From NCBI GenBank assembly GCA_016840905.1, contig JAEORM010000030.1, positions 1 to 13,099 of the forward strand: a DNA stretch of 13,099 nucleotides, written 5' to 3'. The notes below the pieces were generated by a model. The model ran no database searches, was not told where the DNA came from, and was given only the letters and a program-made list of their open reading frames with translations. Below, piece by piece: positions 1 through 13,099 of this stretch. This stretch comes from Candidatus Gerdarchaeota archaeon. GTDB taxonomy: Archaea; Asgardarchaeota; Heimdallarchaeia; JABLTI01. A program made the position numbers and the translations under genes. Each line of letters opens with the position of its first letter. The stretch's first letter is position 1.

Positions 1-90
1 CATAATCTCAATGATTTCTATATCATACACTCTGTTGTTTTATTATTAAAGCGTTGTAGAAAATTCCAACAAGGTTTGTGATTAGAAAAT

Positions 91-100
91 TCAATATATC
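91..100 (+). promoter_or_regulatory. Possible TATA-like promoter element upstream of kynureninase
   Basis: The sequence TCAATATATC follows a purine-rich stretch (GATTAGAAAA) that could act as a BRE. An archaeal TATA box here would place transcription start near 120-125, upstream of either candidate kynureninase start (154 or 208). The same TCAATATAT core recurs at 6210-6218 in front of the UvrA gene. In DNA this AT-rich, such boxes arise often by chance. The rest of 1-153 shows no convincing gene. Confidence 0.25.
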
Positions 101-207
101 TAGTAAATTCGTTCTGGTATTTTTGTCGATAAAAGCACTTTTTCTCTCAAAAAATGGTTATCATAATATTTTTGACTAGTAAAAAGCATTCAAAATTGAT
201 GATTTTA

Positions 208-1488
208 ATGGAAACTCAATTTAATACCACTGAACCTTTCGCTCGGGAACTTGATAGTAATGATCCCTTAGCAAGATTTCGTGATGAATTTATTATACCT
301 GAAAATACTATTTATGTTGATGGTAATTCTTTGGGTTTGATGGCTAAAAAATCTGAGGAATGTATAACAAGAGTAATTAATGAATGGAAAACCCTTGCTA
401 TTAATGGTTGGTACATAGGTAAACCATCTTGGTTTTACTTCAGTGAAATTTTAGGTGAAAAAGCAGCCCCTTTAATTGGGGCAAAAGCAAATGAAGTTGT
501 TGCAACAGGAACTACTACAGTTAACTTACATGCTTTAGTAAGTTCATTTTACCTTCCTACAAAAGATCGAACAAAAATCCTTGCTGATGTTTTAAATTTT
601 CCAACTGATATTTATGCATTAAAAAGTCAAGTAGCATTGAAAGGTTATGATCCAAAAGAACATTTAATTTTAGTGCCATCTACTGATGGTCGTTTCTTAG
701 ATGAAGATTTAATTATAGACCATATGAAAGAGGATGTTGTTTTGGCTGTACTTCCTTCTGTTCTATATCGTAATAGTCAATTATTAGATATTCCTCGTTT
801 AACTAAAGAAGCGCATAAGAGAGGGATTTTAATTGGTTTTGATTGCAGCCATTCTGTAGGAGCCATTCCTCATAATTTCGATAAATGGGATATAGATTTT
901 GCTTTTTGGTGTAGTTATAAATATATGAATGGTGGACCAGGTGCACCAGCCTTTCTATATGTAAACGAGAAACATTTCGATGTTTACCCTGCATTAAGTG
1001 GTTGGTTTGGAAATAATAAAGCAACACAATTCAATATGTCACTTGAATTTGAACCGGCAAAAAATGCTGGGCAATGGCAAATATCATCACCGGGCATTCT
1101 TGGTGCAGCAGGGATAGAAGGAGCATTGGAAATCACTCTTGAAGCGGGGATAGATGCTATTAGAGAAAAAAATATTCAAATGACATCTTATTTGATTTAT
1201 TTAATAGATGAAATTTTAACAAAAGAACCATATAATTTTATTTTAGGTACTCCTCGAGAGAATCATAAAAGAGGAAGTCATATAGCATTAGAGCGAAACG
1301 AATTTTCATATGAAATATTTGAAGCTCTTAAAGCTCATGGTGTAATAGGTGATTATCGTCAGAAGAATATTATTAGAATAGCACCTGCAGCGTTGTATAA
1401 TACTTATCATGAGATATGGCGTGTTGTTCATATTTTAAAGAAAATAATAGATGAAAAAGAATATGAACAATTTAAAATAAAGGAGTAA
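208..1488 (+). CDS. kynU: Kynureninase (PLP-dependent L-kynurenine hydrolase)
   Basis: Kynureninase cleaves L-kynurenine to anthranilate plus alanine, or 3-hydroxykynurenine to 3-hydroxyanthranilate plus alanine, in tryptophan catabolism or de novo NAD synthesis. It is a soluble fold-type I PLP enzyme. Seen here, numbering from ATG 208: the N-terminal DGNSLG motif (38-43), the Asp of FDCSHSVG (Asp212) expected to contact the PLP ring nitrogen, and SYKYMNGGPG with the presumed Schiff-base Lys238. The GWFG and FEPA..AGQWQ segments typical of the family follow. At 426 residues the length fits. The frame opens at ATG 154, but the extra residues are hydrophobic and unlike family N-termini, whereas METQFNTTEPFARELDSNDP matches a normal one; ATG 199 is also possible. 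No Shine-Dalgarno decides the start. No other kynurenine-pathway gene is in the window. A PepF gene follows after 81 bp without an obvious terminator, so co-transcription is possible. Confidence 0.93.
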   Translation: METQFNTTEPFARELDSNDPLARFRDEFIIPENTIYVDGNSLGLMAKKSEECITRVINEWKTLAINGWYIGKPSWFYFSEILGEKAAPLIGAKANEVVATGTTTVNLHALVSSFYLPTKDRTKILADVLNFPTDIYALKSQVALKGYDPKEHLILVPSTDGRFLDEDLIIDHMKEDVVLAVLPSVLYRNSQLLDIPRLTKEAHKRGILIGFDCSHSVGAIPHNFDKWDIDFAFWCSYKYMNGGPGAPAFLYVNEKHFDVYPALSGWFGNNKATQFNMSLEFEPAKNAGQWQISSPGILGAAGIEGALEITLEAGIDAIREKNIQMTSYLIYLIDEILTKEPYNFILGTPRENHKRGSHIALERNEFSYEIFEALKAHGVIGDYRQKNIIRIAPAALYNTYHEIWRVVHILKKIIDEKEYEQFKIKE

Positions 1489-1569
1489 AAGAAACTTCTG
1501 ATTTAAAGCGGAACATTAAAGTGGTAATTTAGACCATCAAAAATTAAGAAAAATAAGGTTGTTGTTTAC

Positions 1570-3354
1570 ATGACAGAAAAAGATATCGCTTGGGATTTAT
1601 CAGATGTATTTCCAAGCATAAATGATCCATCCATAGAAAAAGCTATAGAACAAATACAAAAAGTAGCAAATAATATTGCTGAAAAGTATTCGGGTAAAAT
1701 CATTAATTTTTCAGCTAATGAATTATTAATCCTTTTACGAGAATATGAAGAATACCTTATAGAATCAAGAAATCTAGGTATGTATGCAAGATTATCATAT
1801 GCTGCAAATATGACTTTACCTGAAACTCAAAAATTAAATGATCGTGTTAGTAAACTTGGAGCTGAATTAGGTAAAAAATTAGCTTTTCTTAACATAGAGC
1901 TTGGAAAATTAATAAGTTCAAAACCCGAACTAATTAAGGACCCAATTTTAATCAATTATAAACACTATCTTGAACGAATTAATCGAGCTGTACCTCATCA
2001 ACTCTCAGAAATTGAAGAACAATTAATTATTGAAAAAGATCAAAATGGCATTAATGCCTGGCAACAATTACAGAGTAAATGGTTAAATACAAGAATTTTT
2101 GAGGTTGAGGTTGAAGGTGTCAAACAAAAGCTCCCTTATGGTAAAGCTAATGGATTACTTCCTCATAAAGATAGAGCAACTCGTAAATCAGCGAATCAAG
2201 AAATTTATTGTTTACTTAAAAATGATGGAGAGATTTTTGCTTCAGCTATGAGAAGTATTTTTGATGATTGGATCAATATAACGAAAAGGCGTAACTTTGA
2301 TTCAGAAATGCATGCTAGTTTAATTGCTAATGATACTGAACATGAAATTATAGAGAGTCTCCTAAAAACAATTGATGAAGGTTCTCATATATATAGAAGA
2401 TATCTAAAATTGAAAGCCAAATTATTGGGTCTCCCAATTTTAGCAAACTATGATATAGATGCACCTTTGCCCAATTCTCCTGACATCAAATATGATTATG
2501 AAAAAGCTAAAGAGATAACAGTAGAAGCATATAGCAAATTTGATGAAGACTATGCTTATGCAATAAAGGATATGTTTGCTCGAAATCATGTCGATGCTTC
2601 TCCAAGATTTGGTAAAAGAAATGGCGCTTTTTGTTCAAGCTGGTATAAAGGAAAATCAGCTTTTATGTTACAAAGCTATAATGAAACATTAGATGGTATC
2701 TACACTTTAGCTCACGAAATGGGTCATGCAACCCATGATTATTATTTTGCTCAAGAACAAACTATTCTTAATAGTACCATGCCTATGATTGTTGCAGAGA
2801 CAGCTTCTATTTTCGGTGAATTATTAGTAACTGATTTATTGTTAAACAAAGCACAAACAAAAGAAGAAAAAATGGAAATTATTTGTCAAGTACTTGATGG
2901 TGCTGGAATGGCTGCTTTCCAAGTTACTGCACGTGCTTGGTTTGAACAAGATCTTTATGATGCAAATAAACGCGGCGAATATTTAGACTATCAAACAATT
3001 AGTAAGTATTGGACAAAGAATCGTGATAGGATTTATGGTGATGTAATTGAATGGCTCGATGTTATGGATGCTGAATGGACCATGAAAGGACATTATTACA
3101 TGCCAAATTTCAGATTCTATAATTATCCATATGTCTATGGTCAGTTATTCGTTTATGCTCTTTATCAGAAATATATAGATGAAGGAAAAGCCTTTGTTCC
3201 TAAATTCAAAAAAGCACTAGCTATAGGTAATAGTCTCTCACCAAAAGATATTGGTGAATTATTAGGACTAAATGTAGCAGATCCAGAATTTTGGAAATTA
3301 GGAATAAAACGTTTTGAATATTTTGTTGATGAGCTAGAAAAACTCATGAAATAA
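1570..3354 (+). CDS. pepF: Oligoendopeptidase F-like M3 family zinc metallopeptidase (copy 1)
   Basis: This is a gluzincin of the M3B/PepF type, expected to hydrolyse short oligopeptides in the cytoplasm; there is no signal peptide. In this 594-residue protein the zinc site is complete: LAHEMGHATH gives His382, Glu383 (catalytic base) and His386, and VAETAS gives the third ligand Glu410. The preceding GAFCSSWY segment and the late GHYYMPNFRFYNYPYVYGQ segment are the family's substrate-site loops with conserved His and Tyr. The N-terminal half is the helical PepF region. Length is normal (about 600). ATG 1570 has no Shine-Dalgarno before it. The gene lies 81 bp after kynureninase and ends at a strong hairpin terminator. 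The next gene is a clear paralogue. The true substrate cannot be told from sequence; members range from general oligopeptidases to specialised peptide-processing enzymes. Confidence 0.93.
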   Translation: MTEKDIAWDLSDVFPSINDPSIEKAIEQIQKVANNIAEKYSGKIINFSANELLILLREYEEYLIESRNLGMYARLSYAANMTLPETQKLNDRVSKLGAELGKKLAFLNIELGKLISSKPELIKDPILINYKHYLERINRAVPHQLSEIEEQLIIEKDQNGINAWQQLQSKWLNTRIFEVEVEGVKQKLPYGKANGLLPHKDRATRKSANQEIYCLLKNDGEIFASAMRSIFDDWINITKRRNFDSEMHASLIANDTEHEIIESLLKTIDEGSHIYRRYLKLKAKLLGLPILANYDIDAPLPNSPDIKYDYEKAKEITVEAYSKFDEDYAYAIKDMFARNHVDASPRFGKRNGAFCSSWYKGKSAFMLQSYNETLDGIYTLAHEMGHATHDYYFAQEQTILNSTMPMIVAETASIFGELLVTDLLLNKAQTKEEKMEIICQVLDGAGMAAFQVTARAWFEQDLYDANKRGEYLDYQTISKYWTKNRDRIYGDVIEWLDVMDAEWTMKGHYYMPNFRFYNYPYVYGQLFVYALYQKYIDEGKAFVPKFKKALAIGNSLSPKDIGELLGLNVADPEFWKLGIKRFEYFVDELEKLMK

Positions 3355-3361
3355 GAGATAT

Positions 3362-3397
3362 TTCGGTTATTTTAACCGAATATTTTTTATTTTTTTA
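3362..3397 (+). terminator. Hairpin plus T-tract terminator after the first PepF gene
   Basis: There is a perfect 8-bp stem, TTCGGTTA (3362-3369) and TAACCGAA (3373-3380), with a TTT loop. A run of almost pure T (TATTTTTTATTTTTTT) follows directly. It starts 7 bases after the stop codon and separates the two PepF genes into different transcripts, at least in part. It would work as an intrinsic terminator in bacteria; in archaea the T-tract alone could suffice. Confidence 0.65.
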
Positions 3398-3401
3398 TAA
3401 G
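3394..3401 (+). promoter_or_regulatory. Probable TATA box for the second PepF gene
   Basis: TTTATAAG is close to the archaeal TATA consensus. It sits about 43 bp before the ATG at 3444, so a start site about 25 bp downstream would give a leader of roughly 20 nt. Its position just after a terminator fits an independent promoter for the second paralogue. The call rests on motif and spacing only and assumes an archaeal host. Confidence 0.35.
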
Positions 3402-3443
3402 ATTAAATACATTAATTTTGAAATGGTATTGGGGTAAGTAAAT

Positions 3444-5222
3444 ATGATGGAAGAAATTCCTTTTGATTTAACCGATGTTTTCTCTGGGATAAATGATCCT
3501 GCTTTTGAAGAAGCTATTGAACAGTTAAATTCTCTTGTTAATGAATTCGCAAAAAAACACCAAGGAAAGATAGAAAAATACGATGCTGAAGGTGTTCTTA
3601 ATTTACTACTTGAATATGAGAAATATCTAGAGAGTTATGGTACAATTCGAGTCTTTGCAGGATTTTCTTTTTATGGAGATATGACTAAAAAAGATGCTCA
3701 AATTCTCTATAATCGTTTCAAGGAAATACATGCTATTAATGCAAAAAAATTAGCTTTTTATAATCTTGAATTAGGTAAATTGTTAGTGAAAAAGCCTGAA
3801 TTGATTAACGATAAGATTTTGCAAAATTATCATCATTATTTGAAGCAAGTTCAAGAAATCACCAGCCATCAACTCACTCCTATCGAAGAACAACTAATAA
3901 TAGAAAAGGATCTTTACGGAGTCAAAGCGTGGTCTGATTTACAAAGTAAATGGTCTAGTATAAGAGAATTTGAAATCGATATTAATGGAAAGAAAGAAGT
4001 TTTCCATATTGGTGAAAGAACCAAATATGCTATGAATGAGAATCGAAATGTTAGAAAACAAGCTTTAGAATTAATTTCAACTGATTGTGTTAAAAATGGG
4101 GAGATCTATGCTTATGCTCTTAGAAATATTTGTAGTGATTGGGTTGCAATATGTAAAAGAAGAAAATACGCAAAACCAATTGATGAATCTTTATTCTACA
4201 ATGAAATCGATCAGATTATATTAGACAATATGTTTTCTGTTATTGAACGTAACATCCCCTTATATAGAAAAATCTTGAAAATAAGAGCAAAACTATTAGG
4301 TTTACCAAAATTAGCTCCTTATGACACAATTGCACCAATATCTGGTATGAAAGCAATAAAATATTCTTGGCAGGATGCACAAAAACTAATTTTAACTTCT
4401 TTTTCAAAATTTGATAGAGAATTCATGGATATAGCTAAAGATATGTTTGATAGAAATCATATAGATGCTACTTCTCGTAAAGGAAAAACAGCAGGAGCTT
4501 TTTGTTCTTCTTGGTATGCTGGAAAATCTTCTTTCATTTTGCAAAGCTTTAATGAAGACATAGAGAGTGTAACTACAACTGCTCATGAATTAGGCCATGC
4601 TATTCATAGCTATCTTATGTATAAAGAACAAACGATTATTAATTGTGGGTATCCATCAACTGCTGCAGAAACAGCCTCTTTTTTTGGTGAGCTTTTATTG
4701 ATCGAACAACTATTGAATAAGGTTGAAACAAAAGAAGAAAAAATTGATATTCTCCTAAAATTGGTAAGTAGAATTGGTCATGTTATTTTTGGTTTAACAC
4801 CTATGTATTGGTTTGAATTAGAACTTTATAATGCAATAGAAAGAGGAGAATACCTGGATTATTCTACTATTACAAATTATTGGGTTACTGCTCGAGATAA
4901 AATCTACGGAGAAGAAATCGAATGGTTTGAAGAAAGCAACTCATCATGGTGTCTAGTTCCTCATTATTACATGGTTAATAATCGATTCTATAATTATCCC
5001 TACATTTTTGCTCAATTATTTGTTTACGCTCTTTACCAACAATATCTTAAGGAAAAAGAAACTTTCATACCAAAGTTCAAAAAAATATTAAGCGCTGGTG
5101 GGAGTTTACCCTTAAATCAACTGGGTGAGATAATGGGTTTAGATATTACAAAACCAGAATTTTGGGAATTAGGGATGAAGCAATTTGAATATTTTGTAAA
5201 TGAACTTGAAAAAATAATCTAA
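3444..5222 (+). CDS. pepF: Oligoendopeptidase F-like M3 family zinc metallopeptidase (copy 2)
   Basis: This 592-residue paralogue of the upstream PepF aligns along its whole length with almost no gaps and roughly half identical residues by eye. Both proteins open with a DL(S/T)DVF..INDP motif and end with FEYFV(D/N)ELEK. The zinc site is intact: TAHELGHAIH gives His381, Glu382 and His385, and AAETAS gives Glu409. It therefore looks like an active cytoplasmic oligopeptidase. The specificity loops differ from copy 1: GHYYMPNFRF becomes PHYYMVNNRF, and TSTMPMIVAET-type residues become CGYPSTAAET. This suggests a different peptide preference. Two ATG codons are adjacent (3444, 3447); GGGGT about 10 bases upstream is a weak ribosome-site candidate. 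The gene converges on the minus-strand small membrane protein gene, with a short terminator between them. Confidence 0.93.
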   Translation: MMEEIPFDLTDVFSGINDPAFEEAIEQLNSLVNEFAKKHQGKIEKYDAEGVLNLLLEYEKYLESYGTIRVFAGFSFYGDMTKKDAQILYNRFKEIHAINAKKLAFYNLELGKLLVKKPELINDKILQNYHHYLKQVQEITSHQLTPIEEQLIIEKDLYGVKAWSDLQSKWSSIREFEIDINGKKEVFHIGERTKYAMNENRNVRKQALELISTDCVKNGEIYAYALRNICSDWVAICKRRKYAKPIDESLFYNEIDQIILDNMFSVIERNIPLYRKILKIRAKLLGLPKLAPYDTIAPISGMKAIKYSWQDAQKLILTSFSKFDREFMDIAKDMFDRNHIDATSRKGKTAGAFCSSWYAGKSSFILQSFNEDIESVTTTAHELGHAIHSYLMYKEQTIINCGYPSTAAETASFFGELLLIEQLLNKVETKEEKIDILLKLVSRIGHVIFGLTPMYWFELELYNAIERGEYLDYSTITNYWVTARDKIYGEEIEWFEESNSSWCLVPHYYMVNNRFYNYPYIFAQLFVYALYQQYLKEKETFIPKFKKILSAGGSLPLNQLGEIMGLDITKPEFWELGMKQFEYFVNELEKII

Positions 5223-5256
5223 AAAGGATAGGTTAAATCAACCTTTCTTTTTTTAT
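5223..5256. terminator. Bidirectional terminator between convergent genes
   Basis: The 34-bp gap between the PepF stop (5222) and the small minus-strand gene's stop (5257) holds an inverted repeat, AGGTT (5230-5234) with AACCT (5240-5244). An alternative pairing is AAAGG (5223-5227) with CCTTT (5242-5246). On the plus strand it is followed by TTCTTTTTTTAT; on the minus strand the hairpin leads into ATCCTTTTT. The T-tract on each side suits termination from both directions. The stem is short, so the T-tracts may do most of the work. Confidence 0.5.
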
Positions 5257-5421
5257 TTAATACCAAATCATTTCCACTGGTGGATTTTTAGTAACAAAAT
5301 AAACTGTGAAAATCACTATTAACAACATAGCAATTATACAAAACGCACCAATTCCTAGAAACACTTTTCGTCGTGTTGTGAATTTCTCTTGGGGCATTTC
5401 TTCTTCGAGTTCTTCTGCCAT
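5257..5421 (-). CDS. Small single-pass membrane protein, 54 residues, function unknown
   Basis: The minus strand encodes MAEELEEEMPQEKF at the N-terminus, then a basic TTRRK and a hydrophobic segment at about residues 20-43 (VFLGIGAFCIIAMLLIVIFT and onward). A short tail ending in PPVEMIWY closes the protein. The acidic, then basic, then transmembrane order predicts a single-pass protein with a cytoplasmic N-terminus by the positive-inside rule. The ATG at 5421 lies 37 bp after the methyltransferase stop on the same strand and has no clear Shine-Dalgarno; the two are probably co-transcribed. Its size and topology resemble small secretion-channel subunits (SecE/Sec61-beta class), but no diagnostic motif is visible, so no function is assigned. 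The charged-hydrophobic-polar design and fit to the operon make it more credible than the antisense frame across it. Confidence 0.6.
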   Translation of the reverse strand: MAEELEEEMPQEKFTTRRKVFLGIGAFCIIAMLLIVIFTVYFVTKNPPVEMIWY

Positions 5422-5458
5422 GATTTTTCAATCCATTCTTTCATTTTTGAACTTTTAT

Positions 5459-6133
5459 CTATTTTGTATAAATTATACAGAATATACTTGAATTATCCAC
5501 TTCTTCTATTTTAGCATTTACTTTTATTTTTTTGACAAGTTCGTTAAAATCATGTTCTGTAAAAGTAGTAGCAATAAAACCATCTTTACAGACAATTTTA
5601 CCATCTTTTGTTTGGTCAAAATCTATTTCACCTAATAATCCTTGTTCAGATTGATCAATGAACCATTCTAATCTTTCTTGCCAAATTTTTTCTGAATAAC
5701 TAGAGAGAATGACTTTCCCTCCTGGTTTTGTTACTTGAATGCTTTCAGTTACCAAAATGGTTGGATCAACCTTAAATGCTGAAATACCATTTTGTATCGC
5801 TATAACAATATCAAATTTCTGTTCTTCAAATTTAAGTGATTGTGCATTCATTTGTAGCAATTTCACATTTTTAAATTCTTGAAGATAATATTCTGCCAAA
5901 AGTAAACTATCTTTTGATGTATCAATACCATAGACCATAGCTACTTTCTGAGCTAAAGGTTTCATTACTCTACCATAACCACAACCAAGTTCTAGCACAA
6001 TATCATTAGGTTGAGTTTGTGCTAAAACATATTCGATTTCAGCAGTCAAATATTGTTGAATTCTAGGTTTAGCAATATCATAGCATTGTTTCAATTTATT
6101 TGCTGAAAGTTTTTGAGAGTAATATTCATCCAT
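5459..6133 (-). CDS. Class I SAM-dependent methyltransferase
   Basis: This Rossmann-fold methyltransferase transfers a methyl group from S-adenosylmethionine to an unidentified substrate. With ATG 6133 as residue 1, the protein is 224 residues. Motif I is VLELGCGYGR (about 46-55). The acidic residue ending strand beta2 is in YGIDTS (Asp71). Motif IV is FDIVIAIQNGIS (about 107-118), and KPGGKVILSSYS forms the post-IV strand. The open frame extends one codon further to a TTG at 6136, but the adjacent ATG is the more likely start. Nothing in the C-terminal part identifies a substrate, and the fold is shared by small-molecule, lipid and protein methyltransferases. It is divergent from the giant UvrA gene across 184 bp and is followed by a small membrane protein gene on the same strand. 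Confidence 0.88.
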   Translation of the reverse strand: MDEYYSQKLSANKLKQCYDIAKPRIQQYLTAEIEYVLAQTQPNDIVLELGCGYGRVMKPLAQKVAMVYGIDTSKDSLLLAEYYLQEFKNVKLLQMNAQSLKFEEQKFDIVIAIQNGISAFKVDPTILVTESIQVTKPGGKVILSSYSEKIWQERLEWFIDQSEQGLLGEIDFDQTKDGKIVCKDGFIATTFTEHDFNELVKKIKVNAKIEEVDNSSIFCIIYTK

Positions 6134-6317
6134 CAAGTTATTTCCATTATTCTTTTCAGCTAATATAATTGTAATAGTTAATCAAAGTAATGGTCATCAA
6201 AAACTAAAGTCAATATATTGATTTTCATAATACTTTTAGTTACCTCTGGTAATAATTAATAACATTAAAGCAATTTTACGATAAACTTAGTAGATAATTT
6301 GTTTCGAGAGATTGTAG
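6134..6317. promoter_or_regulatory. Divergent intergenic region with nested inverted repeats
   Basis: These 184 bp separate the methyltransferase (-) and UvrA (+) starts and must hold both promoters. A perfect 12-bp palindrome, TCAATATATTGA (6210-6221), can serve as a TATA-like box in both directions. It sits inside a wider inverted repeat, AACTAAA (6202-6208) and TTTAGTT (6235-6241), although the two are not concentric. A further AT-rich box, AATAATTAATAA, lies at about 6250-6261. The layout would suit a shared operator, but no regulator gene is nearby and AT-rich palindromes are common by chance. No gene or RNA is visible here. Confidence 0.35.
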
Positions 6318-9300
6318 ATGAAAATATCCATCAAAGGAGCATGCGAAAATAACCTCAAAAATATTGATGTTGATATAGATGATGGGATAACAGTTGTAAC
6401 TGGAATTTCTGGTTCTGGAAAAACATCTCTCGTTTTTGATACACTCTATAAAGAAGCTCGCAGAAGATTTATGGATATTTTTTCCATAAGAACCTCTGCA
6501 CTTAGAATGCAACCTGTAAAGGTTCAAAGTTTGATAGGTGTAGGTCCAACAATAGCTGTAGGGCAAAATTTGCTTAATAGAAATCCTTTGTCCACTCTAG
6601 CTACTGCTTCAGGTTTACATCCTTTTTTACGTTTATTATATGCTAACTTTGGTGAAAGACGATGTAATAATTGTGGAAATCTAATACAAATTTTAGATGA
6701 AGATTCAATTGTAGACAAACTAAATTTACTGAAGAAGCATAAGGAAATCACTCTTTTTAGTCCATTAGTTAAAAGGAGTAAAGGAAGTCATAGAGCACTT
6801 CTTAGTAAATTAGTTGCTACATTTAAACATCAAAATATTTTTGTTGATGGAAAAATTTGGGACAACAAAAATTTAATCCCAACAATTGAACATGATATTG
6901 AAATAAAATTAGGTGAAATAAAACAAAACACTTCTATTAAACAAATAAGGGAATTTATTCAAGAATCTGGTATGCTAGGAACGCCTGCAATAATACTTCG
7001 AGCAACTAATTTTGAGGTAATTTTTTCTAAAGATTACATTTGTGCAAATTGTAATACTTGGCTGGGAGAAGTAAAACCACAGCATTTTCATACTAGATGT
7101 CCATTTTGTGAGGGTAAGGGTTGCGTACAATGTAAACAAACAGGTTTGCACCCACAAGCTGCAACTGTTTATTGGGGAGGATTAATTTTACCAGAGTTAT
7201 TATCACAATCTATAGCTGATGTTAGTAGATTATTTGCTCAAGAAGAATTACCTAACTCAGCTGATAGATTAAAACATGAAATTACTAAACGGCTCGATTC
7301 GCTTCTTCAAGTTGGATTGGGTTATATCTCACTTGATAGACCTTCACCAACCTTATCTAGAGGAGAATCACAAAGAGTTAGATTAGCGGTAGCAATTTCT
7401 AGCAAATTGGAAGATATGCTTTATGTTTTAGATGAGCCAACAGTTGGCCAACATATGGCTGATGTTAATCGTTTTCTTCCAATTTTCAAGGAGTTAAAAG
7501 GTTCTGTTGTTTTTGTTGAACATGATAGAATGGCTGCTTTATCTGCAGATGAAGCTATAGATATTGGTCCTAAAGCGGGATTTATGGGTGGTGAAATTGT
7601 ATTTCAAGGTTCGCTAAATGCATTGTGGGAATCCAATACAATTACTGGACGTTATTTTAGTCTAAATGAACGCGTACAAATCCCTTCTTCCAATAAAGCA
7701 TCAAATCATTTTCTGATTTTTAAAGAAGCTTTTTTCAGAAATTTACAACAAATTGATATTAAAATTCCTTTAAACTGTATGACTGTTATCACAGGTGTTT
7801 CTGGTTCAGGAAAAAGCACTCTTATTGAAGAGGTTATAGTTCCTTCTTTAACAAAGAAGAAAGCAATTGGTTGTAAAGAAATTATTGGTTCCTTATTAAA
7901 ACCAATAATAGTAGATCAGTCACCTATTGGACGGAATCCCCGATCAAATCCTGCAACCTATACTAATCTTTCAGATATTATACGAGAAATATTTTCAAAC
8001 CAAACAAAATTATCAGCTTCCCACTTTTCGTTTAATAGACCTGAAGGAGCTTGTACTGCCTGTAATGGTATTGGTGCGCAAGAAGTAAAAATGCGATATC
8101 TTCCTTCTACTTGGATAACATGTGCTTCATGTTCAGGTGATAGGTTTTCTGAAGAGGTTTTGGAAGCTAAAGTTTCTTTTAATGGTAAAGAGTACTCAAT
8201 TGCTGATTTTTATAATCTTGATGTTGCTCAAGCATATAATTTATTCAAAAATGAAAAACGATTTTCTGAAAAAAATCAAAACGCTGCTCTTAGAATTCTC
8301 AAAGCGATGATGGATGTTGGTTTGGGATATCTCCCATTAGGACAATCCTCAACAACACTTTCAGGTGGTGAAGCTCAGAGAGTAAAATTAGCAAAATATC
8401 TTGGAAAAGGATCAATTAAAGATCGATTAATCATTCTAGATGAACCTTCTACTGGTTTACATCCATTTGATATAAGTGGTTTATTGAATGTTCTTCATCG
8501 TTTAGTAAGAGCTAATGGAACAATTATCGTGGTAGAACACAACTCAGACATTATACGAGCTGCAGATTGGATTATTGATTTGGGGCCTGGAGCAGGTGAT
8601 GAAGGTGGAAAAGTAATTTTTTCTGGTACACCTAATGATTTACTTCATTGTAAAAATTCATTAACGAGTGAATTTCTAGAACGAGAAGAAAAAATCAAAC
8701 CAGAAGCAGAGAAGGAAGAGGTAAGACACTCTTATTCTGATAAAATTTCAATTCGAGGGGCAAATATCCACAATTTAAAGAATGTTGATATCGATTTTCC
8801 TAAAAATCAATTAATAGTTGTTACAGGTGTTTCGGGTTCTGGAAAATCAAGTCTTGTATCTGATATATTGGAAATAGAAGCTAGAAGAAGATTTCTTGAA
8901 ACATTAACTTTATATGAACGTCAAAGCACACGAGAAGGACCTGAAGCTCCAGTCGAATCAGTTAGTGGCTTAGGGGTAACACTAACTGTTAAACCTGGTA
9001 GAGATAATTATAATCTACGAAATACTGTTGGAATAGCAACTGAGATTTCTTATCATTTCGCAATTTTATTTGCTAATATAGGTGATAAATTCTGTTTAAA
9101 ATGCGGAGAGAAAATGATAAAAGGTGAACATTGGATTTGTCCATCTTGCAAATCTGTAGAACCATTAGCAAAGGTTCGTCATTTCTCACCCATAAATTAT
9201 GCTGCGGCATGCACTACTTGTAATGGTGTAGGCACACTTAGAAAACCTTCTCCAGAGAAATTGATCATTAATCCTAAAAAACCACTTTGTGAAGGAGCAA

Positions 9301-11180
9301 TGTATTCGCCAGGTTTCTTCCCTTATGGATTTATCTGTAAACCTTTCAATAGTGGTTATTATATAATACGAGCTTTAGGTGAGCGATATAATTTTGATCC
9401 TTGTAAAACTCCATGGAATGAAATGTCTGAAGAAGCACAAAACGCTTTTCTTTTTGGTGATTCAAAACCAATAGAAGGAGTAAGTATTGGTCGAAAAGGG
9501 CATACTAATCCATTTAAATTTACTTTTCGTGGTTTTTATGGTTGGGTGAGGGAATGGGATGTAGGAGGAACCTATACTGAAACACAGATCTGTCCTCAAT
9601 GTAAAGGTGCACGTTTAAAACCTGAATATCTTTCAGTTAAAATTAATAATTTTAATTTACATGAAATTCAAGAATTATCTTTAATTGAACTTGAAAAAAT
9701 CTTAGGCTCAATAAAAATATCTGAAACTAAACCCAAACTTATTTTTTCAAGTTATGAAGCAGTGATGAAACGATTAAAGTTTCTAATCCAAGTTGGTTTG
9801 GGATACATCCATCTTAACAGAATTTTTGCTACTTTATCTGCTGGTGAAGCTCAAAGAATAAAATTAGCTGGTTTGTTGGGTAGTGGATTAACTCATCTAA
9901 CGATCTTATTGGATGAACCATCTCGAGGTATGCATCCTGTTGAAATTGATGGTTTGATAATTGCTCTTAAAGAATTAAGAGATGAAGGAAATACTGTTAT
10001 CGTTGTAGAACATGATCCAGAAATAATTGAAAAAGCTGATTATCTTATTGATATGGGACCAGGACCAGGAATTGCAGGCGGTAAAATTTGCGCGAAAGGA
10101 TCATTTCCAGCGGTACTTGAGAAGCAAACTATTACAACTGATTGGTTAAATGGGAAACGAAAAATTAATTTGAAGAAAATCACTCGAGAGTCAAAAGATT
10201 GGATGATTATTGAAGGTGCTAAAGCACAAAATCTGAAGGGAGAGGATATTAAAATTCCTCTGGGAATTTTAACAGGTATCTGTGGAGTTTCGGGTTCTGG
10301 TAAGAGTACTTTACTAATAGACACATTGGGAAGAGCATTGATTCCCAAAAAACAAACAACTTCTGTTGCTTATGAACCTATAGATCCAGGGGAGCATAAA
10401 GTTATCAAAGGTGCACCAGAACGTGTAATAATGGTTGATCAAACAAGACAGGGTATCTATAACCCATTATATTATTTAGGTTTAACAAAACCATTTATGA
10501 AAATCTATGCTGAAAGTGAGGATGCTGAAATTTTAGGTATAGATGAATCTATCTTGTCAAAACAATGTAGTGTTTGTAATGGTCGGGGAATCATTTCTAC
10601 AGATTTAGATTTTCTACCATCTATTTTAACACCTTGTGATACTTGTAAAGGATCAGGACATATTGCTGAAATTTGGGACATCCGCGTAAAAGGGTATACT
10701 TTACCAGATTTATACAATCTAACAATAGAACAGGTTTATGAATTATACAAAAATCAACCTCAGATTGCTGGTAAATTACAATGTGCAATTGATGTTGGTC
10801 TAGGTTATCTTGTTATGAAACAACCAAGTTATTCTTTATCAGGAGGGGAAGTACAGAGATTAAAAATAGCGTTTGAGTTAAGTAAGAAAGCTCTCGATAG
10901 AACTTTGTATATTCTAGATGAACCAACTGTTGGGCAGCATTTAGAAGATATCAATAGATTAATTGGTGTTTTTAATAGATTAGTTGAATTAGGGCATTCA
11001 GTAATAGTAATAGAACATAGTACAGAAATTTTAGCTTCATGTGATTGGTTAATCGAATTAGGTCCTGGAGGAGGTCCTGATGGTGGAAAAGTAGTTGCTG
11101 AAGGTACACCTAGTAAACTTGCAAAAGGAACGACACCAACAGCAAAATACCTTCGTAAAATTTTGGAGGAACTAAAATGA
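6318..11180 (+). CDS. uvrA: Giant tandem UvrA: four-ABC excinuclease subunit A-like ATPase
   Basis: UvrA is the damage-sensing ABC ATPase of nucleotide excision repair and normally has about 940 residues with two ABC cores. This 1620-residue protein holds four: Walker A lysines at 35, 499, 843 and 1329; signatures LSRGE (346), LSGGE (681), LSAGE (1173) and LSGGE (1507); Walker B Asp-Glu at 372-373, 708-709, 1199-1200 and 1534-1535. A charged linker (about 785-808) joins two UvrA units. The DNA-binding zinc finger of each second core has the UvrA spacing CX2CX19CX2C (579/582/602/605 and 1417/1420/1440/1443), which identifies UvrA rather than ABC-F or a transporter. Unit 1 keeps a UvrB-binding-like region (about 120-241) but has no insertion domain. 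Unit 2 lacks the UvrB-binding region but keeps the insertion domain (about 969-1091). The C-terminus (AEGTPSKLAK...YLRKILEELK) is complete. Start ATG 6318 gives a normal UvrA N-terminus without a strong Shine-Dalgarno. The stop overlaps the next gene. Chlamydial UvrA is also a tandem form. No uvrB or uvrC is in the window, so a repair role is likely but not shown. Confidence 0.93.
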   Translation: MKISIKGACENNLKNIDVDIDDGITVVTGISGSGKTSLVFDTLYKEARRRFMDIFSIRTSALRMQPVKVQSLIGVGPTIAVGQNLLNRNPLSTLATASGLHPFLRLLYANFGERRCNNCGNLIQILDEDSIVDKLNLLKKHKEITLFSPLVKRSKGSHRALLSKLVATFKHQNIFVDGKIWDNKNLIPTIEHDIEIKLGEIKQNTSIKQIREFIQESGMLGTPAIILRATNFEVIFSKDYICANCNTWLGEVKPQHFHTRCPFCEGKGCVQCKQTGLHPQAATVYWGGLILPELLSQSIADVSRLFAQEELPNSADRLKHEITKRLDSLLQVGLGYISLDRPSPTLSRGESQRVRLAVAISSKLEDMLYVLDEPTVGQHMADVNRFLPIFKELKGSVVFVEHDRMAALSADEAIDIGPKAGFMGGEIVFQGSLNALWESNTITGRYFSLNERVQIPSSNKASNHFLIFKEAFFRNLQQIDIKIPLNCMTVITGVSGSGKSTLIEEVIVPSLTKKKAIGCKEIIGSLLKPIIVDQSPIGRNPRSNPATYTNLSDIIREIFSNQTKLSASHFSFNRPEGACTACNGIGAQEVKMRYLPSTWITCASCSGDRFSEEVLEAKVSFNGKEYSIADFYNLDVAQAYNLFKNEKRFSEKNQNAALRILKAMMDVGLGYLPLGQSSTTLSGGEAQRVKLAKYLGKGSIKDRLIILDEPSTGLHPFDISGLLNVLHRLVRANGTIIVVEHNSDIIRAADWIIDLGPGAGDEGGKVIFSGTPNDLLHCKNSLTSEFLEREEKIKPEAEKEEVRHSYSDKISIRGANIHNLKNVDIDFPKNQLIVVTGVSGSGKSSLVSDILEIEARRRFLETLTLYERQSTREGPEAPVESVSGLGVTLTVKPGRDNYNLRNTVGIATEISYHFAILFANIGDKFCLKCGEKMIKGEHWICPSCKSVEPLAKVRHFSPINYAAACTTCNGVGTLRKPSPEKLIINPKKPLCEGAMYSPGFFPYGFICKPFNSGYYIIRALGERYNFDPCKTPWNEMSEEAQNAFLFGDSKPIEGVSIGRKGHTNPFKFTFRGFYGWVREWDVGGTYTETQICPQCKGARLKPEYLSVKINNFNLHEIQELSLIELEKILGSIKISETKPKLIFSSYEAVMKRLKFLIQVGLGYIHLNRIFATLSAGEAQRIKLAGLLGSGLTHLTILLDEPSRGMHPVEIDGLIIALKELRDEGNTVIVVEHDPEIIEKADYLIDMGPGPGIAGGKICAKGSFPAVLEKQTITTDWLNGKRKINLKKITRESKDWMIIEGAKAQNLKGEDIKIPLGILTGICGVSGSGKSTLLIDTLGRALIPKKQTTSVAYEPIDPGEHKVIKGAPERVIMVDQTRQGIYNPLYYLGLTKPFMKIYAESEDAEILGIDESILSKQCSVCNGRGIISTDLDFLPSILTPCDTCKGSGHIAEIWDIRVKGYTLPDLYNLTIEQVYELYKNQPQIAGKLQCAIDVGLGYLVMKQPSYSLSGGEVQRLKIAFELSKKALDRTLYILDEPTVGQHLEDINRLIGVFNRLVELGHSVIVIEHSTEILASCDWLIELGPGGGPDGGKVVAEGTPSKLAKGTTPTAKYLRKILEELK
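11163..11180 (+). promoter_or_regulatory. Ribosome binding site and ATGA start/stop overlap
   Basis: The last codons of the UvrA gene contain GGAGG (11166-11170), 6 bases before ATG 11177. This is the clearest Shine-Dalgarno in the window. The UvrA stop TGA (11178-11180) overlaps that ATG as ATGA. Together they indicate translational coupling of the toroid protein to UvrA, and they fix the downstream start. Confidence 0.75.
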
Positions 11181-12208
11181 CCTGGTTACCAATTTTATTA
11201 GCAGACCCTTCACTAAATCTTCGTTATCTTGTGATGAAAAATTTCTTATCAGAAGATAATGCTGACGAATTGAATGAGCTAGAAGAACTCCGTTATGAAG
11301 ATTCTTTATTGACTGATTTATTAGCTTTACAATCACCTGAAGGGTATTGGGATAAAGGTGATTTTGTTGGTGGAAGTCATAAAACTCGAATTTTCACTAC
11401 TGCTCAAGCTTTAATTAGATTGAGTTATTTTGATTTACCAAAAGAATATCTTCCTATTAAACAAGGAGTTGAATATCTCTTTAGCGAACAAAGAGATGAT
11501 GGTTCGTGGCCTTTACCTGCTTATCGAGAAAAATTTGTTGAAAAAGATGGTTATGAGATTATGTCATTGCAAACATCTTTACCTCTAAGAGCTATTGCCA
11601 AATGTGGCTTTGCTACTGATTCTCGTGCAGAGAAAGCATATAATTGGTTGTTAAATCAACGCACACCAGATGGCACTTGGCCAACAGGTATCGTAAAAGG
11701 AAACTTTGGTTATGTAGCTGGTTATCGAAAGATTGCTCAAAGTAGATGGGGGTGTCGGTCAAATACAACTGGGGCGCTGATTTGTTTAGCACATCATCCT
11801 AAGTATCAACATTCACCAGCTGCTCAAAGAGCCTTGGATTTATTATTGGGTCGTGATACACAAGAACAACAAACACTGGGTTATGAAGTGGCGAGAACAA
11901 TTGGTTTTGAGCAAGCAACAGGATTTATCACTTATTTTGCAAGGTTTGATGTATCACTTATGCTTGACCTTTGTTGGCGCGTCAAAGCGACATTAGAAGA
12001 CAATCGTATTAGAGAATTAGTTTCTTTCATAGAGAACCTACAAGGTCCGTATGGTCTTTGGGAATATCATGAGAAACCTCACGCATCACGATGGATTACA
12101 TTTGATATACTAAGATCACTTAATAATTTACAAGCTGATGGCGAGTGGCTAAGCAATGTACCAAAAACGCCTTTCCAAACCTATCCAAAAACAAAGAAAC
12201 GATTTTAA
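11177..12208 (+). CDS. Prenyltransferase/squalene-cyclase-like alpha/alpha-toroid repeat protein
   Basis: The 343-residue protein carries repeated QW-type motifs (QxxxGxW) of the terpenoid-cyclase/prenyltransferase toroid fold: QSPEGYW (52-58), QRDDGSW (105-111), QRTPDGTW (161-168, one residue longer) and QGPYGLW (289-295). Helical segments with small residues lie between them. The DxDD acid motif of squalene-hopene cyclases is absent, and no protein-prenyltransferase zinc triad can be assigned, so cyclase activity is unlikely; a binding or scaffold role, or an unknown enzyme, is more plausible. The first 30 or so residues (LADPSLNLRYLVMKNFL) look like a helical-repeat cap. No signal peptide or membrane segment is seen, so it is probably cytoplasmic. 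It starts inside the UvrA stop codon with a good ribosome site and is very likely made together with UvrA. Proteins of this fold are sometimes annotated only as prenyltransferase/squalene oxidase repeat-containing. Confidence 0.82.
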   Translation: MTWLPILLADPSLNLRYLVMKNFLSEDNADELNELEELRYEDSLLTDLLALQSPEGYWDKGDFVGGSHKTRIFTTAQALIRLSYFDLPKEYLPIKQGVEYLFSEQRDDGSWPLPAYREKFVEKDGYEIMSLQTSLPLRAIAKCGFATDSRAEKAYNWLLNQRTPDGTWPTGIVKGNFGYVAGYRKIAQSRWGCRSNTTGALICLAHHPKYQHSPAAQRALDLLLGRDTQEQQTLGYEVARTIGFEQATGFITYFARFDVSLMLDLCWRVKATLEDNRIRELVSFIENLQGPYGLWEYHEKPHASRWITFDILRSLNNLQADGEWLSNVPKTPFQTYPKTKKRF

Positions 12209-12219
12209 TTTTGTTTTTA
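12203..12219 (+). terminator. T-rich tract at the end of the UvrA-toroid operon
   Basis: TTTTAATTTTGTTTTT begins at the toroid stop codon. No stable hairpin precedes it, so it would fit an archaeal U-tract terminator better than a bacterial intrinsic one. The remaining stretch up to 12375 holds no gene I can support; it contains a 10-bp tandem repeat at 12259-12278. Confidence 0.3.
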
Positions 12220-12258
12220 ACCAAATTTAACTAAAGAAAAGCAAAAAGAAGAAAAGAG

Positions 12259-12278
12259 TTTCCAACAATTTCCAACTA
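12259..12278 (+). repeat. Two tandem copies of TTTCCAAC(A/T)A
   Basis: TTTCCAACAA (12259-12268) is followed directly by TTTCCAACTA (12269-12278). The 10-bp period is about one helical turn, so two bound proteins would face the same side of the DNA. A related TTCCAACAA lies at 64-72 in front of kynureninase. Function is unknown; it may be a regulator site for the DUF3303-like gene or chance. Confidence 0.35.
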
Positions 12279-12375
12279 TTTTACCAAGAATTTAACATTA
12301 ATGATAATCGAAATAATCTTAAAAGAGATTATTGATTGTTTAATAGTAAAAGAAATTTTGATGGAAGTCATGTAC

Positions 12376-12663
12376 ATGAGATTCATAGTATTTTGGGAAT
12401 ATCTACCTGAAACCTTGGATGAGGTATTAAAAAAATTAAATAAATTTGAAAAAGAGGAAGCAAAAAATAAAGAAAAATATCCTACAATACTAACAGGTCC
12501 ATTTTTATTTACAGGTGAATCCAAAGGTATAACAATTTGCTCAGCTGATAATGACGAACAGATTTTTAGCTTATATCAATATCTCCATCCAGAGTTAAAA
12601 ATGAGTTTTGTTCCTGTTATGGATACCAAAGAAGCTAAAGAATTTTTATTACCAGGTAAATAG
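12376..12663 (+). CDS. DUF3303-like small protein, function unknown
   Basis: From ATG 12376 the protein has 95 residues and begins MRFIVFWEYLPET, a typical start for the DUF3303 family of small alpha/beta proteins. KYPTILTGPFLFTGESKGIT (35-54) and HPELKMSFVPVMD (71-83) also match the family's pattern as I recall it; the fold is dimeric alpha/beta-barrel-like, and the biochemical role is unknown. The frame is open back to ATG 12301, with ATGs at 12361 and 12370. The MRF start is preferred because family members begin there, and because GGAAG (12363-12367) lies 8 bases upstream. The extra 25 residues are hydrophobic and low in complexity. The gene converges with the MFS transporter gene, leaving 16 bp between them. 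Confidence 0.72.
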   Translation: MRFIVFWEYLPETLDEVLKKLNKFEKEEAKNKEKYPTILTGPFLFTGESKGITICSADNDEQIFSLYQYLHPELKMSFVPVMDTKEAKEFLLPGK

Positions 12664-12679
12664 CTTAATAGCTCTTTCT

Positions 12680-13099
12680 TTACTTTGGTGTAGAAAACGA
12701 TGGTGGTAATTCTTCTACTTTTTTAGTTGTTTTTGGTTCACTAATGAATAAATAACCCATTGATGCTATTAATCTCCCACCTGCAATGATCCAAAGTAAA
12801 ACATAAATTGTCAACCATTCATTGTTCATAATTTTTATGTGATCAGCAATTATCCCCATTACAAGACTAGCTATAAATGTTACTACACCAACAAAGAGAT
12901 TATGGATGCCTGTATATGTTCCTTTTTCTGCTTCTGGAGCACAATCCAATATATAGCTATTTTGTCCAACGAAATAAAATGCATTGCACATTCCACTAAC
13001 AATTGAGGAAAGTGACATAAACCACCATGTTGGTAACCATATGATTGCTATTGCCAAATTTAGTGGTACTAAAAATAATCCCACTCTTCCAATAAATAG
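12680..13099 (-). CDS. Major facilitator superfamily transporter, C-terminal part (5' end outside window)
   Basis: The last 139 residues of a membrane transporter are encoded. The frame runs through the window edge without a stop (LFIGRVGLFLVPL...). A GTG at 13082-13084 is internal, so the gene is cut by the window rather than short. Four membrane spans are visible: around LFLVPLNLAIAIIW, FMSLSSIVSGMCNAFYFVG, LFVGVVTFIASLVMGIIAD and YVLLWIIAGGRLIASMGYLF, as expected for spans 9-12. Between spans 10 and 11 lies SYILDCAPEAEKGTYTGIHN, the cytoplasmic loop seen in many MFS proteins (P.e.rg...g). A hydrophilic tail of about 20 residues (SEPKTTKKVEELPPS) ends in the cytoplasm. The substrate cannot be inferred from this half. 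Confidence 0.8.
   Translation of the reverse strand, partial: LFIGRVGLFLVPLNLAIAIIWLPTWWFMSLSSIVSGMCNAFYFVGQNSYILDCAPEAEKGTYTGIHNLFVGVVTFIASLVMGIIADHIKIMNNEWLTIYVLLWIIAGGRLIASMGYLFISEPKTTKKVEELPPSFSTPK

Follow-up and report, generated by a model that had tools for sequence, protein, structure and literature searches.

A two-unit UvrA gene and the gene overlapping its end

The window analysed here is the whole stretch of 13,099 nucleotides from Candidatus Gerdarchaeota archaeon (assembly GCA_016840905.1, contig JAEORM010000030.1, positions 1 to 13,099 of the forward strand). It includes a gene for a UvrA protein in which two UvrA units are joined in tandem in a single chain, and a second gene, for an alpha/alpha-toroid protein, the start codon of which overlaps the stop codon of the tandem gene. 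The features of both genes are the following.

6318..11180, + strand: tandem single-chain two-unit UvrA gene, 1620 amino acids, four ABC ATPase sites (open reading frame; TIGR00630 and NF001503; PDB UvrA matches; motifs)
6318..8717, + strand: unit 1, residues 1-800, UvrB-binding-type domain present, insertion domain absent
6402..6425, + strand: Walker A of ATP site 1, residues 29-36
6663..7052, + strand: Zn1 module and UvrB-binding-type domain, residues 116-245 (PF17760, residue tables)
7098..7133, + strand: Zn2 module of unit 1, residues 261-272, without insertion domain (cysteine spacing, alignment)
7794..7817, + strand: Walker A of ATP site 2, residues 493-500
8718..11177, + strand: unit 2, residues 801-1620, insertion domain present, UvrB-binding domain absent
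8826..8849, + strand: Walker A of ATP site 3, residues 837-844
9093..9149, + strand: Zn1 module of unit 2, residues 926-944, closed up, without UvrB-binding domain (cysteine spacing, alignment)
9210..9602, + strand: Zn2 module of unit 2 and insertion (DNA-clamp) domain, residues 965-1095 (PF17755)
10284..10307, + strand: Walker A of ATP site 4, residues 1323-1330
11177..12208, + strand: partner gene, alpha/alpha-toroid protein (squalene-cyclase-like fold) of 343 amino acids, its ATG overlapping the tandem TGA (ATGA)

The tandem protein belongs to the UvrA family. It scores 1374 bits with TIGR00630 (cut-off 730) and 1348 bits with NF001503 (cut-off 1147), both units being summed in each case; stretches of the related tandems, when scored separately, fall below the cut-off of the family. 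Pfam finds a single UvrB-binding-type domain, in unit 1 (residues 129-221), and a single insertion domain, in unit 2 (residues 979-1077). The original prediction, made from the letters of the window, held that each unit lacks the accessory domain that the other keeps, with cysteine pairs 122 and 4 residues apart in unit 1 and 11 and 123 residues apart in unit 2. These spacings were recovered exactly to the residue, and both Pfam and hidden Markov models (HMMs) bear out the complementary architecture. A diverged UvrB-binding fold in unit 2 and a displaced insertion domain in unit 1 were sought, and neither was found. The pairs separated by only 11 and 4 residues, together with HMMs that show no second copy in 67 tandems, rule out a hidden second accessory domain. 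From the ATPase motifs and the insertion domain, the tandem is predicted to bind DNA and to act as an ATPase.

Conservation of the two-unit architecture

The tandems compared were 67, each longer than 1500 amino acids and the window's included. With HMMs built from canonical UvrAs, exactly one of each domain was found, in the halves given above, in 64 of them; in the other three, all from Kribbella, the UvrB-type domain alone falls below the HMM threshold. Within 26 aligned tandems, the UvrB-binding stretch has 125-132 positions occupied in unit 1 and 16-25 in unit 2, and the insertion stretch has 0-12 and 97-132, respectively. By sequence, all four ABC ATPase sites are intact: the Walker B glutamate is present in 67/67 tandems at each of the four sites and the Walker A lysine of sites 1 to 4 in 65, 67, 66 and 67, the remainder being gaps; the signature and H-loop motifs of the ABC sites were examined across the same set.

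Named genomes were scanned with one unit-1 peptide pattern and an insertion-less unit-1 query, which kept 80 of 86 relatives and thus favours this architecture. The resulting 80 loci are hosted by Asgard lineages, Bathyarchaeota, Chloroflexota, Actinomycetota, one Bacillota, one Caldifarciminota and others. The whole-protein search is free of that bias. It gave 7985 matches out of 7994 candidates scored, and the best 120 of the 7985, the window's own row included, are all tandem-sized (117 of 1600-1699 amino acids, two of 1500-1599 and one of 1743). Cysteine pairs are distributed 4/2/4/2 in 115 of these best 120 matches, and the long and short spacings are those of the window in 93 of the 94 fully parsed rows among the matches listed. 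The closest named homologues among the matches listed share 80% identity (Candidatus Heimdallarchaeota) and 82% identity (labelled Candidatus Bathyarchaeia). The Asgard phylum of genome G028 has the tandem in 24 of 148 genomes, two of these being partial matches. Recurrence of tandem-sized relatives rules out an assembly artefact and, on the evidence of these sequence comparisons, the complementary two-unit architecture is real, old and fixed.

A toroid protein gene accompanies the tandem

A homologue of the toroid gene lies 3′ of the tandem in 66/66 testable loci, in 65 of them within 300 nucleotides (six-frame HMM search, 3 kb downstream); the most distant one is located 2.2 kb downstream (L004). 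Outside these 66 stand nine tandems that are shorter than 1500 amino acids or have less than 300 nucleotides downstream, and open reading frames shorter than 900 amino acids, L008 included; one of the nine, L042, shows the start of a toroid gene. When neighbours were counted from open reading frames (64 tandems, within 1 kb), 55 tandem-toroid pairs were found, 41 of them with the 4-nucleotide overlap. A strong toroid match is present in 31 of the 33 genomes searched, the exceptions being the genome with a broken tandem and a chlamydial genome. In the class to which G025 belongs, taken by us to be Bathyarchaeia, 121 genomes were covered, and all eight strong toroid matches in them adjoin a tandem or a tandem piece. 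Judged from gene content and order, the pair formed by the tandem UvrA and the toroid gene is fixed and common to archaea and bacteria, and is a larger find than the proposed subfunctionalisation of the two units.

Two loci depart from the intact arrangement. At L008 (CP070760.1) the tandem reading frame ends at about 660 amino acids and the best toroid match is only 3.3e-9, as if tandem and toroid had been lost together. On a 2.3-Mb contig (G162:C1) the pieces of a tandem (L140 and L141) lie about 0.5 Mb apart, residues ~1-294 at one place and residues 1064-1619 with the toroid gene at the other, a split that may reflect decay, rearrangement or an assembly error.

The partner proteins share invariant YR and GCR motifs, and 48 of 56 carry a Q..xGxW-type repeat. 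The DxDD string, the hallmark catalytic motif of type II terpene cyclases, occurs in 9 of the 56 (in seven near residues 20-29) and is not conserved; none was seen on reading the window protein. In a crude distance test over 56 loci, toroid divergence tracks the insertion domain (partial r 0.54) over the UvrB-type domain (0.19). Our first idea, that the UvrB-type domain is the dock of the toroid, was dropped after this test pointed to the insertion domain. As to the anti-phage defence models of PADLOC, 53 families match the tandem, with mad3 and mad8 at the top among the 25 matches listed, which we read as general ABC-ATPase matches, and no model matches the toroid protein. A search of a literature library that lacks bioRxiv preprints and the majority of subscription papers returned no description of the fusion, of its interface or of a UvrA-toroid pair.

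The UvrB contact face of unit 1

Five residues of the face that contacts UvrB were scored, namely R176, D205, R206, R216 and E222 in E. coli numbering. R176 and R206 are residues that we presume to matter for UvrB, and D205 is our own addition, chosen on the basis of the alignment. R216 and E222 alone have a literature source, PMC3025350, excerpts of which describe an E. coli UvrB-interface mutant with both residues changed. The control consisted of N-terminal units of canonical type, 25 in all, drawn from 22 genomes that bear a tandem; 24 come from ordinary UvrAs and one is the first half of a full tandem, L111. All five residues are kept in 24 of the 25. The exception, L094, is a 974-amino-acid UvrA of G025 (CP070683.1) that keeps three of the five, R206 and R216 being absent; its source is a 1.68-Mb Bathyarchaeon chromosome record without UvrB above the cut-off. 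Of the tandems, 65 could be aligned over the face, that is, the 67 minus two gap rows, which we read as L007 and L016, their 5′ ends being cut by contig ends. No face residue is left in 28, one in 33, two in three and three in one, so that 61/65 retain at most one, and the window protein retains none.

Other positions of the same domain are conserved in the tandems. H162 (H158 in the window) is invariant in 65/65, canonical units having mostly Y, and R218 (R211 in the window) is found in 62/65, canonical units having mostly A, T, V or S. Both constraints extend to the tandems of Actinomycetota, and R218 is predicted to share a helix with the positions of R216 and E222. A third candidate, H198, was discarded as a tandem-specific residue, as it is also conserved in canonical UvrA (24/25). 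The near invariance of H162 and R218 indicates that the domain is constrained, either for another purpose or for a markedly different mode of UvrB binding. From these residues, the UvrB-type domain of unit 1 probably serves another partner. The original prediction had assigned UvrB contact to one half and DNA clamping to the other; a DNA-clamping half, with the insertion domain, is plausible, whereas a UvrB-contacting half is not supported, the face being lost.

UvrB and further UvrA proteins in the carrier genomes

The genomes carrying the reduced tandem are 44, that with the broken tandem of L008 included; a 45th genome searched, G045, belongs to the Chlamydiota. UvrB is detected above the cut-off in 36 of the 44, and an additional UvrA-family protein in 40. 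For the remaining four, no further UvrA above the cut-off was found in G015, G034 and G036, and only a fragment in G008. This second UvrA-family protein rules out, for most carriers, that the tandem replaces UvrA. Three Asgard genomes (G011, G020 and G031) hold paired full-length canonical-type UvrA genes (L103, L104 and L105) that adjoin uvrB.

In the 121 Bathyarchaeia genomes the tandem has ten carriers: six strong matches, three cut by contig ends and one in pieces. A UvrB match (E up to 1e-60) was found in none of these ten and in 25 of the remaining 111 genomes. This difference is no proof of avoidance, but the absence from all ten points to a tandem that can persist where UvrB is missing. 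The counts rest mainly on draft genomes of unstated completeness.

Origin of the two units

In the more careful of two trees, with 13 rows of each unit, unit 1 forms one clade and unit 2 another (100/100 each), and Actinomycetota split first within both. These matching clades, with the same first branch, are consistent with one old fusion.

What preceded the fusion may have been two UvrA paralogues that were already distinct, unit 2 being of class II type, so that only the loss of the insertion domain from unit 1 would be new; we give this history nearly as much credit as all others combined. Asgard single-chain UvrA2-like proteins, which have no UvrB-binding domain, join unit 2 in the FastTree phylogeny (0.971) and in the careful tree (61/97). 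Moreover, 12 loci from Lokiarchaeota have a UvrA2-like gene immediately 5′ of the tandem. Against this, the grouping is unstarred in the careful tree, and a topology joining the two units as sisters is not rejected (p-AU 0.538), its likelihood being 2.19 higher than that of the free tree. FastTree, in addition, places unit 1 with other class II UvrAs (0.87 and 0.93; weakly, 57/74, in the careful tree), which implies a more complex history of the UvrB-type domain. Loss after duplication and fusion of different paralogues cannot be distinguished by these trees. A history in which each half lost the domain retained by the other is not established, since class II and Asgard UvrA2-like proteins are also without the UvrB-binding domain.

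The UvrA2-like gene of the 12 loci (L020, L021, L027, L031, L038, L040-L043, L048, L056 and L071) codes for about 835 amino acids, with an insertion domain and without a UvrB-binding domain. Genes frequent near Lokiarchaeota tandems are of methyltransferase, DUF3795, BtrH and PadR types. Four Kribbella and two Actinopolymorpha loci have one shared family upstream, of APH type in the member tested.

Other genes in the window

Upstream of the tandem gene, two adjacent M3 oligoendopeptidase genes (1570-3354 and 3444-5222) share 48% identity and represent a tandem gene duplication. A gene of the kynureninase family is located at 154-1488 (TIGR01814, 367 bits; cut-off 246).

Proposed mode of action and alternatives

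We consider it rather probable that the tandem is a single-chain asymmetric UvrA with a dedicated toroid partner, that it works independently of UvrB, and that it is a specialised paralogue and not the UvrA with which the cell performs nucleotide excision repair (NER). The chain would fold on itself, forming the saddle that two UvrA chains make elsewhere, with the insertion domain of unit 2 as the main grip on DNA. The remodelled arm of unit 1 would no longer bind UvrB and would take a different partner. Recruitment may occur through this arm, through the insertion side or through both; the toroid protein is the obvious candidate. ATP turnover at four individually distinguishable sites could power recognition and release, and the remodelling might free or present a DNA lesion or a DNA-bound ligand without UvrB, as proposed for Ecm16, the toroid protein acting as the dedicated downstream factor.

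Several points weigh against this reading. The tandem of L034 keeps three of the five face residues and three others keep two. In the 36 carriers with UvrB, binding through the remodelled face is possible, and the Bathyarchaeia counts are subject to the reservation given with them. The distance test disfavours an arm that binds the toroid (0.19 against 0.54 for the insertion domain). Finally, the role assigned to the tandem in handling lesions or ligands is drawn by analogy. For the full proposal, an undescribed two-gene machine common to archaea and bacteria in which a one-chain UvrA heterodimer, with a single arm for a partner and a single clamp for DNA, and an obligate toroid clear one class of DNA lesions or bound compounds free of UvrB, our confidence stays a little below even.

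One alternative is a genotoxin-resistance machine, in which a single chain related to class II UvrAs and Ecm16 strips small molecules from DNA and the toroid, similar in fold to small-molecule cyclases, receives or modifies them; we hold it to be unlikely, if worth keeping in mind. Least probable of all, in our judgement, is the original prediction of a true NER UvrA in an obligate complex with one UvrB, for which speak the retained and well-predicted UvrB-binding-type fold, the UvrB gene in 36/44 carriers and the reports of both A2B1 and A2B2 complexes with ordinary UvrA (parts of the review PMC7835731; titles of 9ga3 and 9ga4), and against which stand the reduction of the face to 0-1 residues in 61/65 tandems, the second UvrA-family protein in 40/44 carriers and the undetected UvrB in 10/10 Bathyarchaeia carriers.

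UvrA has been studied as a homodimer and, according to that review, estimates of its stoichiometry with UvrB vary. A natural one-chain asymmetric UvrA would allow a single site or arm to be mutated at a time and would avoid mixed dimers. If the tandem is independent of UvrB, class II-like UvrAs gain a defined, conserved partner to test.

Comparison with known systems

Canonical class I UvrA (G. stearothermophilus, 2r6f and 3uwx) has both domains in each UvrA unit, hence two of each per dimer. The window chain, in contrast, has one of each domain in two fused units, and its UvrB-face residues are lost. An Asgard genome (G026) carries a full tandem UvrA, L111 (1972 amino acids), each half of which has both domains; compared with it the window tandem is reduced, and G026 also holds a reduced tandem, L030.

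Class II UvrAs (D. radiodurans UvrA2, 2vf7; Ecm16, 7sh1) are, like the tandem, usually accompanied by another UvrA. They are single-unit chains that dimerise, with two insertion domains per dimer, and the UvrB-binding domain is absent from the protein, whereas unit 1 of the tandem carries a UvrB-type domain and has no insertion domain. Their role is termed unclear in excerpts of PMC5128194, and Ecm16 is linked to drug resistance in excerpts of PMC10192343. By analogy, class II UvrAs are the nearest functional model for the tandem.

The tandem UvrAs described by NF001885 (model of 1809 positions) resemble the window protein in having two UvrA units in one chain. We take this model to be chlamydial, which agrees with the tandems found in Chlamydiota-class genomes. 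Chlamydial tandem UvrA was the comparison named in the original prediction, and it does not have the complementary pattern of the window. Of 37 genomes in the class to which a Chlamydiota genome belongs, 13 supplied tandems for comparison; 12 of these tandems have two UvrB-binding domains by HMM, and the remaining one, L085, has one by HMM and shares the cysteine spacing of its relatives. For the second half, few of the tandems have an insertion domain above the HMM threshold, although most keep the cysteine spacing for it, and L091 and L092 have separate insertion losses, located in the first half. In the careful tree, the chlamydial halves included (L088 and L090) belong neither to the clade of unit 1 nor to that of unit 2. 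The window protein scores 884 bits with NF001885, of which the cut-off is 3054, and this score and the differing domain pattern rule it out as a chlamydial-type tandem.

As for the partner, it shares the toroid fold and the Q..xGxW-type repeat with type II terpene cyclases and squalene-hopene cyclase. It differs from the type II terpene cyclases in being a single toroid in which DxDD is not conserved and which has the invariant YR and GCR motifs instead.
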